A stretch of 64,000 nt of DNA from an uncultured OCS116 cluster bacterium (lineage in GTDB: Bacteria; Pseudomonadota; Alphaproteobacteria; Rhizobiales; TMED25): assembly GCA_902633855.1 (NCBI GenBank), contig CACPHU010000003.1, forward strand, positions 1-64,000. Reading direction: 5' to 3'. The position numbers were made by a program, and so were the translations under genes. This document shows, piece by piece, positions 40,389 to 44,877 of this stretch. Position 1 is the first letter of the stretch; every line of letters begins with the position of its first letter. Under the pieces are notes generated by a model that did no database searches, was not told the DNA's origin, and was given only the letters and a program-made list of their open reading frames with translations.

Positions 40389-40889
40389 GTGAATATGGAG
40401 TTAGTTAATAATCCAAGAAATTTATCTGACAGTCTATGCTTGCCCAAAATTAAGTCTGCTGGGGGGTTAGTATTGAATGATAAGAACAACCTTTTATTAA
40501 TCTTTAAAGGTCAAAAGTGGGATATGCCTAAAGGCAGGATTGAGAGCGGAGAGTCAAAAGAAAAAACGGCACTACGCGAAGTTGCAGAAGAAACCGGGCT
40601 GGATTTTCATAAATTATCAATACAGGGAAAATTGGTATCTACTTGGCATACGACCCGACACGATAATTTGCGATACCTCAAGAAAACGCATTGGTACCTA
40701 ATGCGTTATCTAGGCGGAGATGATGCAACTATCCCCCAAATAGAAGAGGGCATCTCAGAATGCAGATGGGTCAACAAAACTGAGCTGTCAAACTATCTTG
40801 ATGCTACACAGCTCAGGGTACGATATGTTATAGATTTTTGGCAAAAAAATTTTCCTGACATTTTACAATCCAATCAAATCGTTGCTTGA
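40389..40889 (+). CDS. NUDIX hydrolase
   Basis: A 166-aa protein with a complete Nudix box: GRIESGE, seven residues, REVAEETG. The preceding SAGGLVLNDKNNLLLIFKGQKWDMPKG strand is typical of small diphosphate hydrolases acting on nucleoside or diadenosine polyphosphates or diphosphoinositol-like substrates. It is 67 bp after ppk2 in the same direction and its 3' end overlaps convergently with the phnE tail by 27 bp. Confidence 0.9.
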   Translation: MNMELVNNPRNLSDSLCLPKIKSAGGLVLNDKNNLLLIFKGQKWDMPKGRIESGESKEKTALREVAEETGLDFHKLSIQGKLVSTWHTTRHDNLRYLKKTHWYLMRYLGGDDATIPQIEEGISECRWVNKTELSNYLDATQLRVRYVIDFWQKNFPDILQSNQIVA

Positions 40890-42185
40890 TGGGCCTTTGA
40901 TTAATCGCTGACGCACTTTTCCTGATAACCAATCAGTAGTTGTGACGAGTATTATTATCAGTATAATGTAATATGCAACTTCTTCCCAGTTACTTTGCGT
41001 AATAATTGCCTGAGTAAGCATCAAACCTATGCCACCGCCCACAATCGCGCCGATAACAGTTGCGCCACGAATATTTGACTCGAAGTAATATAAAATTTGA
41101 CTAAGCAAAACTGGAGTAATTTGGGGAATAACTCCGAAACGATAGCGTTGAATATTTTTCGCTCCAGTTGACTGTACTCCATCTATCTGTTTTTTATCTA
41201 CGTTTTCTATAGCCTCTGAGAATAGCTTCCCAAATGTTCCTGTGTCAGTAACAACCATGGCTAAGGCACCTGTTAGTGGTCCGGGTCCGAAAGCTCTTGC
41301 TAAGATTATCGTCCACAGCAAATGATCTAAGCCTCTCGTAAAATCGAATATACGACGAAAGAGTGACCTGATGGGAGCTAAGGGCGTAATATTTTTTGCC
41401 GCTAAAAACGCAAGGGGAAATGCCATCAAGGCAGCTCCAAATGTTCCCAAAAAAGCCATTAGTATGGTTTCACCTATCGCCCAAGCAACATCGCTGTGTC
41501 TCCACATTTTATTGTACCAGAACTCCTCCAATATTTCAGCAAGCTCCCCACTATGCGCAAGTGAAACTAATTCGGATACACTTTTCCCATAGTATGGGCT
41601 GTCAAGAGTAAAGAAAAATAACTCCCAGCCATTAAAGTATCTAAATACTTCGGCTCGATTTCGAGTGATGCTGAGGCGACCCGCTTCCGTGGTAATAGCA
41701 ATTCGATTTTTTGACTGATTGATCCATTTCGGTAATGGTCCATCGGGGAATTCAGCTTCAACCCCACGTGAACTTGGCTTGGCCCAAATTCTACCATAAT
41801 TTGGCACCTCATAGACAACATCCTCTTCTCCAAAAAATATCAGATGACCTCCGCCAAGGTCTACTTTTGTAGTATTTCCTAATTCTACCCAGCTTGGCGC
41901 TGTTCCATCTGGGAATCTCCCCTTTTTTTCACCTTCAACGGATACAGAAATACCACCGTTTCGGTTATCACGAGTAATATGCGTCTTATAGCTATACATA
42001 TCCCCAACTAAGGTTTTTGCGTTTTTTAGGGACCCTCGTTCACTCAGGCCCATGATATCGAAAGAAACCAAAACATAAGTGAGGTATGCAAAGATAGCTA
42101 ATGGAATACCAATTGCCCGAGCACGTTTAAAGTAAAAAAGCTCATTTACATTCGTTTTGAGAGTCTCTCTACCATTGATACTCAT
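40863..42185 (-). CDS. phnE: Phosphonate ABC transporter permease PhnE (long form)
   Basis: A 440-aa permease with the PhnE C-terminal core (ALMAFPLAFLAAKN, FTRGLDHLLWTIILARAFGPGP, SNIRGATVIGAIVGGGIGLML). Between the first membrane helix and the core is a periplasmic insert of about 150 residues with repeated strand motifs (FPDGTAPSWVELGNTTKVDL, FPDGPLPKWINQSKNRIAI). The duplicated PDGxxPxW phrase suggests two copies of a small domain. Overlaps the upstream phnE by 4 bp. Its C-terminal coding end is duplicated as a fragment at 45145-45190. Confidence 0.9.
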   Translation of the reverse strand: MSINGRETLKTNVNELFYFKRARAIGIPLAIFAYLTYVLVSFDIMGLSERGSLKNAKTLVGDMYSYKTHITRDNRNGGISVSVEGEKKGRFPDGTAPSWVELGNTTKVDLGGGHLIFFGEEDVVYEVPNYGRIWAKPSSRGVEAEFPDGPLPKWINQSKNRIAITTEAGRLSITRNRAEVFRYFNGWELFFFTLDSPYYGKSVSELVSLAHSGELAEILEEFWYNKMWRHSDVAWAIGETILMAFLGTFGAALMAFPLAFLAAKNITPLAPIRSLFRRIFDFTRGLDHLLWTIILARAFGPGPLTGALAMVVTDTGTFGKLFSEAIENVDKKQIDGVQSTGAKNIQRYRFGVIPQITPVLLSQILYYFESNIRGATVIGAIVGGGIGLMLTQAIITQSNWEEVAYYIILIIILVTTTDWLSGKVRQRLIKGPSSNDLIGL

Positions 42186-43051
42186 AGCAAGCCCACAGAT
42201 TTGTTGCCGTGTGTCAAACGATCTCGCAATATGCCAGACAGCTGATCAACAATAACAATAGTTACAAATAAAAGTATGAAAATAGCACCAGCCTCGTCAT
42301 ACCGACCTTTACCCCACGAAATTGCATTTTTTAGATCATACCCGATTCCGCCAGCGCCTACAAAACCTAGAATTGCAGAAATACGTATGTTGATTTCAAA
42401 ACGTAATAGTCCATAACTGAAATAATTAGGAGATACTTGCGGGATAACGCCAAGTAGCATTTTTTGCATCCAGCTCGCACCCACTGAGGATAAACCATCA
42501 AGGGGTTTTAGTGACGAATTTTCGTTGACTTCTGAAAATAACTTTCCGAGCGCTCCAGTTGTATGAAAGGTAATAGCAATCATAGCAGGGACCGGGCCGC
42601 CACCAAGTATAAAAATTAATATTAGCGCTATCACAAAATCAGGAATGGCTCTCATAATATCCAAGATACGTCTAAAAACTGGTATGAGCCGAGGCCACTT
42701 AGCCATGCCATGAGTCGCGAGCATGGACAAAAATATAGCGAATACTGATGCGGCCAGAGTTGCCGCAGCTGCAATGTTAATCGTCTCTATTAGTGACGGA
42801 AAGAACTTTACGAAAAGGCCAGGAATTTTATCGGCTTTTTCACTAGCCTCTAAAATTACTTCCTTGGGAAAGTCAAAGATACTTGTGATTCCCGCCCAAA
42901 AACCACCAGCGTTCCTATCATCGACAACATTAAAGCCAGATATCATAAGAACGATAAAAATGCCAAGTAAAATAGCGCTGTACGTTCGACGCTTTTTTAT
43001 AAGATTGAAATACTGTGTTTTGTATTTTTGAGTTGAAGGTATTTCAAGCAT
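42182..43051 (-). CDS. phnE: Phosphonate ABC transporter permease PhnE (short form)
   Basis: A 289-aa inner-membrane permease, partner of the downstream long PhnE. Core motifs: DIMRAIPDFVIALILIFILGGGPVPAM, GALGKLFSEVNENSS and EINIRISAILGFVGAGGIGYDL (the EAA-like loop region). The two permeases would form a heterodimer under the PhnC ATPases. A 65-bp structured gap separates it from phnD, and its ribosome-binding site lies within that structure. Confidence 0.92.
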   Translation of the reverse strand: MLEIPSTQKYKTQYFNLIKKRRTYSAILLGIFIVLMISGFNVVDDRNAGGFWAGITSIFDFPKEVILEASEKADKIPGLFVKFFPSLIETINIAAAATLAASVFAIFLSMLATHGMAKWPRLIPVFRRILDIMRAIPDFVIALILIFILGGGPVPAMIAITFHTTGALGKLFSEVNENSSLKPLDGLSSVGASWMQKMLLGVIPQVSPNYFSYGLLRFEINIRISAILGFVGAGGIGYDLKNAISWGKGRYDEAGAIFILLFVTIVIVDQLSGILRDRLTHGNKSVGLL

Positions 43052-43058
43052 TATATTC

Positions 43059-43103
43059 CCAGAGAAATGTTAGGTAGGCCTATTCTCTGGTTAGACCTAC
43101 CTA
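43059..43103 (-). promoter_or_regulatory. Possible RNA pseudoknot between phnD and phnE, sequestering the phnE ribosome-binding site
   Basis: Two perfect 8-bp stems interleave: CCAGAGAA (43059-43066) with TTCTCTGG (43083-43090), and TAGGTAGG (43071-43078) with CCTACCTA (43096-43103). As RNA (minus strand) the order is stem1 5', stem2 5', stem1 3', stem2 3', an H-type pseudoknot or two alternative hairpins. The last strand contains UCUCUGG followed by GAA, so the GGGA in front of the phnE start at 43051 is partly paired. Likely tunes phnE expression relative to phnD or protects the phnD mRNA end. Confidence 0.55.
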
Positions 43104-43116
43104 TTACATTTACTTT

Positions 43117-44025
43117 TTAGTTAGATTTTAACTTACGAGCCTCTACGATGATTTCGTATGCCTCATGATCTATTGGCATTACTCCCAGTCTGTCACCGGC
43201 AAACACCCCGTATGCGCATTCTGGGTCCATTGATTTCAAACTCGCTGTAAGAGCTGTGATCTTAACCTTTACGTCTGATGGAAGATCTTTTCTTAGTACA
43301 ACTGGCCCCTCTGGAATTGGCTTAGATTGCCAAATCTGCACCATGTCATTCATATCTACCAGACCTGCATCAACTGCTTTCCTTAATGCGCCAGCATTGA
43401 AACCGTCTTCCCATTCACCAAGCCCATCGGCCCAAGTTACACCCCCGTCAACATCGCCATTATTTACTGCAACAATAGTTTGCTCATGGCCACCAGTGAA
43501 CTTAACTTCACCAAAATAGTCCCCCGATTCCATTGTTGCACCAGTTGCTTGCGGTATTTCAATAGATGGTATTAAGTACCCTGACGTTGAGTTAGGATCA
43601 CCAAAACCAAATACTTTACCTTTCATATCATCAAGTGATTTTATACCACTATCCTTTCTGGCAAAACCAACTGAGTAATAACCGTAGCCACCGTCCATAT
43701 TTACCGCAACCACGATTGGTTCTACTGCATCTGGATTTGAAATATAGGTTTTAGCATAGCCTGACGCACCCAGCCAAGCCATATCAATAGTGCCCCCTAA
43801 AAGTCCTTGAATGACTCCATCGTAATCTGCTGGAGCAAATATTTTTGCAGGGACGCCAAGCAAATCTTCAGCTTTTTGACGAAAACATTCATTATTTGTC
43901 ATACGGTCTTGAGCATTTTCACCTCCAAGAATCCCAATACGAAACTCAGATATTGAATGTCCACCTGCAAATGCAGCGGTCGATAGCATTGTAGTAGCAA
44001 TAATTGCTGATAGTAATTTTTTCAT
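43117..44025 (-). CDS. phnD: Phosphonate ABC transporter substrate-binding protein PhnD
   Basis: Periplasmic binding protein, 302 aa, with signal peptide KKLLSAIIATTMLSTAAFA. Family features: FRIGILGGENAQDR, the ADYDGVIQGLLGGTIDMAWLG ligand-site region, GKVFGFGDPNSTSGYLIP (phosphonate-binding STSG loop) and VTWADGLGEWEDG. It captures phosphonates, phosphite or related ligands; no C-P lyase or phosphonatase genes are nearby, so the ligand is open. A good GAGGAG ribosome-binding site precedes it, and RNA hairpins lie on both sides. Confidence 0.94.
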   Translation of the reverse strand: MKKLLSAIIATTMLSTAAFAGGHSISEFRIGILGGENAQDRMTNNECFRQKAEDLLGVPAKIFAPADYDGVIQGLLGGTIDMAWLGASGYAKTYISNPDAVEPIVVAVNMDGGYGYYSVGFARKDSGIKSLDDMKGKVFGFGDPNSTSGYLIPSIEIPQATGATMESGDYFGEVKFTGGHEQTIVAVNNGDVDGGVTWADGLGEWEDGFNAGALRKAVDAGLVDMNDMVQIWQSKPIPEGPVVLRKDLPSDVKVKITALTASLKSMDPECAYGVFAGDRLGVMPIDHEAYEIIVEARKLKSN

Positions 44026-44049
44026 AATTTATCTCCTCTAATTACCATT

Positions 44050-44070
44050 ACCCACTGTATTTTAGTGGGT
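44050..44070 (-). promoter_or_regulatory. Intercistronic hairpin between phnC and phnD
   Basis: ACCCACT (44050-44056) and AGTGGGT (44064-44070) form a perfect 7-bp stem with a 7-base loop, located between the phnC stop and the phnD ribosome-binding site. No following U-tract on the transcript strand, so rather a 5' stabiliser or partial attenuator for the abundant binding-protein message than a terminator. Confidence 0.5.
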
Positions 44071-44079
44071 TGACTAAAA

Positions 44080-44877
44080 TTAAACTGAAACTGAACTTAG
44101 TTCTCCAATTTCAGTTGATGATGTTGCTGCCTCAGAAAAACTAGAGTCAGCACCATACACTTCGCGGGCTATATCTGTTGTTAGTTCAGAAGGTGTCCCG
44201 TCAAAAACTACATTACCAGTTCGCATACCAATCAAACGATCACAGTATTTTCTTGCTGTATCTAATGTGTGAAGGTTCGTAATTATAGTTCGCCCATCTT
44301 CGTCATGTATTCGACGAAGAGTTTCCATTACAATCTGAGCATTCATCGGATCTAGGGAGGCAATCGGCTCATCAGCTAAGATTATTTTTGGATCTTGCAT
44401 CAACGCTCTTGCAATAGCAACCCTCTGTTGCTGCCCGCCAGAGAGAAGTTCGGCTCTTTTGGCGGCTTGCTCTTCGACTCCAAGGCGACCCAAAATTTCA
44501 ATGGCGTTATCGATATCAGATCTCGGATATAAATTGAAAAATGTAGTGAGAGTAGATCTTTTATTTAATGTACCATGAAGCACATTGCTTACCACATCCA
44601 TTCGAGGGACTAAATTGAATTGTTGAAAAACCATTGCGCAATCCGATTGCCATCGTGATTTTGCTGCGCCTTTTAAATCGGATATTGGAATTCCTTCGTA
44701 GTAAATGCTCCCAGATGTTTCTGTTTCTAATCGGTTTATCATTCTTAAAAGGGTAGATTTTCCTGCTCCAGAAGCACCGATTATGCCTAGCATAATTGGT
44801 TTTTCAACCTCTATTGAAACCGAATTTACAGCAATATTGGATCCAAATTTTTTTGTCAGATTATTAATTTTAAGCAT
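44080..44877 (-). CDS. phnC: Phosphonate ABC transporter ATP-binding protein PhnC
   Basis: A 265-aa ATPase: Walker [16 protein letters not shown]-loop [10 protein letters not shown], signature [15 protein letters not shown], Walker [14 protein letters not shown] and H-loop NLHTLDTA. The [17 protein letters not shown] stretch is typical of PhnC. First gene of the phnC-phnD-phnE-phnE operon; its 5' end lies only 28 bp from repeat copy 1, so its promoter must be in or close to the repeat. Confidence 0.94.

Follow-up and report, generated by a model that had tools for sequence, protein, structure and literature searches.

Four genes for a phosphonate importer form an operon, phnC-phnD-phnE1-phnE2, at positions 40863-44877 on the minus strand of the analysed stretch of DNA (64,000 nt; hereafter the window). 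The first gene of the operon, phnC (44080..44877), encodes the ATPase (TIGR02315 ABC_phnC, 306 bits). It is followed by phnD (43117..44025), which encodes the phosphonate substrate-binding protein (SBP) and was identified by TIGR03431 PhnD (305 bits, above the cut-off) and by Pfam Phosphonate-bd. The permease gene phnE1 (42182..43051) and the second permease gene phnE2 (40863..42185) are on the same strand, and both matched TIGR01097 PhnE, with 238.5 bits (above the cut-off) and 238.9 bits, respectively. The distribution of the operon was patchy. Of 14 family genomes, 2 had a close phnE match, and the phnD-phnE pair of the window was found in just one other genome among these 14. Beyond the close relatives, the PhnD proteins nearest in sequence (about 80%) belonged to Rhodobacterales. 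This kinship, together with the patchiness, suggests horizontal transfer of the phn operon. The viral contigs searched contained no phnD relatives.

The end of phnD (43117) and the start of phnE1 (43051) both lie on the minus strand, and therefore the relevant RNA is that of the minus strand. The gap between the two genes is 65 nt long and reads as RNA, up to the phnE1 start, AAAGUAAAUGUAA-UAGGUAGGUCUA-ACCAGAGAA-UAGGCCUACCUA-ACAUUUCUCUGGGAAUAUA-AUG. A Shine-Dalgarno-like GGGA was recognized from the sequence at 43057..43060 (minus strand), 5 nt upstream of the AUG, and the relatives have AGGA. The minus-strand RNA of positions 43059-43103 is 5'-UAGGUAGG UCUAA CCAGAGAA UAGG CCUACCUA ACAU UUCUCUGG-3'. 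Two perfect 8-bp stems, S1 and S2, interleave here in the order S1a-S2a-S1b-S2b, as the sequence-only reading had described. Its report that the last strand overlaps the phnE Shine-Dalgarno was also confirmed, and the 3' strand of S2 covers the first GG of GGGA.

The sequence-only reading had given S1 as an 8-bp stem; that stem is present, but its extent was understated. The perfect core pairs 43096-43103 with 43071-43078, and the hairpin reaches 12 bp once one U-G pair is counted. It spans 43071..43103 on the minus strand, with the 5' arm at 43092-43103, a 9-nt loop at 43083-43091 and the 3' arm at 43071-43082. The predicted fold continues through a 2-nt AA bulge into a 6-bp lower stem, AAAUGU/ACAUUU, so that the whole structure covers 43065..43111. 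The predicted energy of S1 with the lower stem was -20.3 kcal/mol and that of the minimum fold was -22.0 kcal/mol, and the S1 pairs had probabilities of about 0.9-1.0 in the predicted ensemble. The lower stem was missing from the predicted fold of one relative (L034). S2 pairs CCAGAGAA (43083-43090) with UUCUCUGG (43059-43066) and thus spans 43059..43090 on the minus strand. In the nested ensemble, a model that places pseudoknots outside its scope, the S2 pairing probability was 0.003 and the region from the Shine-Dalgarno to the AUG was mostly open.

The two stems differed in how far they departed from chance. This was the sole interleaved pair of 8-bp stems within the 64-kb window, and none of 5000 shuffles of the gap contained one. 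The local rarity of the interleaving was due to S1. With S1 given, an 8-bp match between the loop and the downstream region appeared in about 0.5% of shuffles, which is unusual and not decisive for a feature selected from 64 kb. When the count was extended to 854 kb of this genome, made up of the window and 40 further stretches, two interleaved 8/8 pairs were seen; 40 shuffles gave 0.55 on average, and five of them had at least two. The only other such pair was located at L141:15505-15550. By stem strength, S1 ranked eighth among 759 gene ends of the genome (z 7.5). S1 alone is far beyond chance, and the interleaving is not clearly so.

Strong hairpins were also found after other binding-protein genes of this genome. 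SBP genes preceded five of the nine strongest post-gene hairpins (NMT1-like, OpuAC, SBP_bac_3, PhnD, and Peripla_BP_6), and the chance of this was P < 4e-5 even with 40 SBP genes, an assumed number rather than a full count. Very strong hairpins lay 13-24 nt past the stop codons of the SBP genes at L164:10544-11563, L165:3877-5163, L157:11316-12335, and L155:4066-5130. A hairpin was not present behind every binding-protein gene of the genome.

Every complete close relative that was examined retained S1. The changes within it were one compensatory replacement of A-U by C-G and one one-sided change (C-G/U-G). In the alignment of S1 with four close gaps, 95.8% of the pair cells were paired, and slid registers reached at most 52%. 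Covariation in S1 amounted to a single double change among three close lineages and was not above shuffle control (a) (70 of 500). The comparison was extended to 95 distinct alphaproteobacterial phnD-phnE gaps, mostly from Rhodobacterales and from a variety of families in the order to which the window belongs, with a median stem of 12 bp and a median energy of -23.7 kcal/mol. In 83 of these gaps the hairpin was stronger than all 60 shuffles, and the 83 hairpins started about 20 nt past the phnD stop (mostly 16-23 nt). The identical shuffle test gave 3 of 93 after phnE and 34 of 92 after phnC. These results indicate that the S1 hairpin is real and conserved. The phnC-phnD gap of the window (44026-44082) also contained a hairpin, ACCCACUAAAAUACAGUGGGU (p 2/100). 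The Red Sea MAG REDSEA-S34_B6 (L038:3001-4900) had neither the 3' end of phnD nor its stop codon, and the hairpin's 5' arm was also missing, a loss that yields an open in-frame PhnD-PhnE fusion. The deletion may be genuine, or the assembly may have collapsed at the hairpin.

The evidence on S2 was different. The nearest relative was the Rhizobiales MAG TMED25 (G003/L033), whose PhnD was 100% identical. A 2-nt deletion in its loop changed CCAGAGAA to CCAGAA and reduced S2 from 8 to 5 bp, while the other strand was unchanged and S1 was intact. Four further genomes (L034-L037; PhnD 95% identical) have in common the hairpin AUCGGUAGGCCU-loop-AGGCCUACCGAU, and S2 was absent from all of them, the loop pairing over no more than 4 bp with the downstream region. 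S2 was therefore broken or absent in both other close lineages. An apparent double change in S2 was rejected as covariation: it arises only through a gapped MAFFT alignment of the loop, slides of -1 and +2 gave equally many double changes, and real pairing in L034 extended over 4 bp at most. Loop-to-downstream pairing was not enriched across 87 gaps with good hairpins (mean shuffle p 0.72), and the window alone among them reached 8 bp. Likewise, S1 was the only one of 31 strong post-gene hairpins of the genome with such an 8-bp pairing. The complementarity of S2 is probably fortuitous, having appeared or been altered within the loop, where there is a GA dinucleotide repeat, and S2 probably serves no conserved function.

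At this locus, a stable hairpin lies in the gap that separates an SBP gene from the translocator gene next in the same operon, and its position is conserved in related operons (83 of 95). What was directly observed is the hairpin itself, where it lies, how well it is conserved and how it is associated with binding-protein genes. S1 is likely, in our view, to be an intercistronic stem-loop whose effect is to raise PhnD over the permeases via protection of 3' ends and/or partial termination. Once the downstream part of the transcript is cleaved, the stem would block 3'-5' exonucleases, and/or it would terminate a fraction of the transcripts at the gap. The cell would then accumulate phnD message above that of phnE1 and phnE2, and the binding protein in the periplasm would outnumber the membrane channel. 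This effect on the ratio of phnD to phnE transcripts is inferred from other bacteria. Among the three roles suggested by the sequence-only reading, protection of the phnD mRNA fits the conserved S1 and, by analogy, is likely, but masking of the phnE ribosome-binding site by a pseudoknot or in response to a ligand was unsupported. In alphaproteobacterial marine phosphonate importers, a hairpin right behind the binding-protein gene is almost universal, which is consistent with a general means by which ABC importers set an excess of binding protein.

For the copy in the window, protection is a better guess than termination because the U-tract 3' of S1 is poor (ACAUUUCUC) and the terminator scan flagged nothing in the phnD-phnE gap. 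Many relatives, by comparison, look like leaky terminators, with GC-rich stems followed by TTTTT; at least five T within the next 9 nt were found after 36 of the 83 hairpins. S1 might thus act mainly as a partial intrinsic terminator, at which some polymerases stop after phnD and others read through to the permeases. This is a single-mechanism sub-case of the explanation above, and we hold it only tentatively. Stem-loops past SBP genes in Clostridia terminate at 20.7-96.1% efficiency (PMC9045158), and the window copy, where the bulge leads into a paired A/U lower stem, resembles Type III of that study. However, the U content past the stem was weak in the nearest relatives as well as in the window.

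A second explanation is that S1 and S2 together form an H-type pseudoknot, or a two-hairpin switch, that controls ribosome access to phnE, possibly with a ligand. The perfection and interleaving of both 8-bp stems, the overlap with the Shine-Dalgarno and the rarity of S2 in shuffles with S1 given speak for it. Such a device calls for both stems to be conserved or compensated, but S2 was shortened without compensation in TMED25 and lost in L034-L037. The sequence-only reading had itself named such an outcome in advance as one that would refute its proposal. Pairing of the loop with downstream sequence was also no more common than expected in the other gaps, and the other 30 strong hairpins of the genome had no such 8-bp match. 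The two helices sum to -15.1 and -14.8 kcal/mol, from which a typical pseudoknot penalty of about 9-10 kcal/mol must be subtracted, leaving no clear gain over S1 with its lower stem (-20.3 kcal/mol). L3 is just 4 nt long and has to cross the 8 bp of S1, which is tight by known pseudoknot geometry. No match to Rfam at the gathering score was found anywhere in the window. A pseudoknot or ligand switch is thus not supported, and we regard this explanation as very unlikely. It is just as improbable that a strain-specific, recently evolved pseudoknot exists, in which pairing between the S1 loop and the phnE Shine-Dalgarno lowers permease translation; if true, it would further tune PhnD:PhnE atop the conserved hairpin. 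The locus shows that a striking pseudoknot-like pattern can be produced by a single functional hairpin together with a fortuitous complementary sequence.

The least probable explanation, that a repeated or mobile palindromic (REP-like) element landed in the gap by chance, has a precedent in the malE-malF hairpin of E. coli, which is supplied by REP elements, but it was rejected, as the 73-nt gap sequence is single-copy in the genome (best other match 14 nt) and the hairpins of other gaps are unrelated in sequence.

Compared with known systems, the locus resembles H-type pseudoknot riboswitches and translational operators in the order of the two complementary pairs and in the overlap with the Shine-Dalgarno. 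It differs from them in that the second stem is not conserved, and neither an Rfam match nor ligand evidence was found. The E. coli mRNA has a structure in the malE-malF intergenic region that shields malE from 3'-5' exonucleases, and in several ABC operons the binding-protein genes are the stabilised partners (PMC5927463). In both the malEFG and the phn operon, a stable structure separates the binding-protein gene from the first permease gene, and a stabilised binding-protein mRNA would be expected. However, S1 is a lone, unique hairpin, its operon is one for phosphonate import with phnC ahead of phnD, and the two are compared by position, not by sequence kinship. In cellulolytic Clostridia, stem-loops occur in 87.3% of the examined gaps behind 5' SBP genes, where they cause partial termination and affect transcript stability (PMC9045158). 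S1 shares with them the position directly past the SBP stop and inside an ABC operon, the long stem, and an A/U lower stem set off by 2 unpaired nt. The differences are that S1 belongs to Alphaproteobacteria, the SBP gene is the second of its operon, the U-tract of the window copy is weak, and termination at S1 is hypothetical. In position, strength and context, S1 fits the SBP stem-loop class, and it is another case of this already known kind of element.
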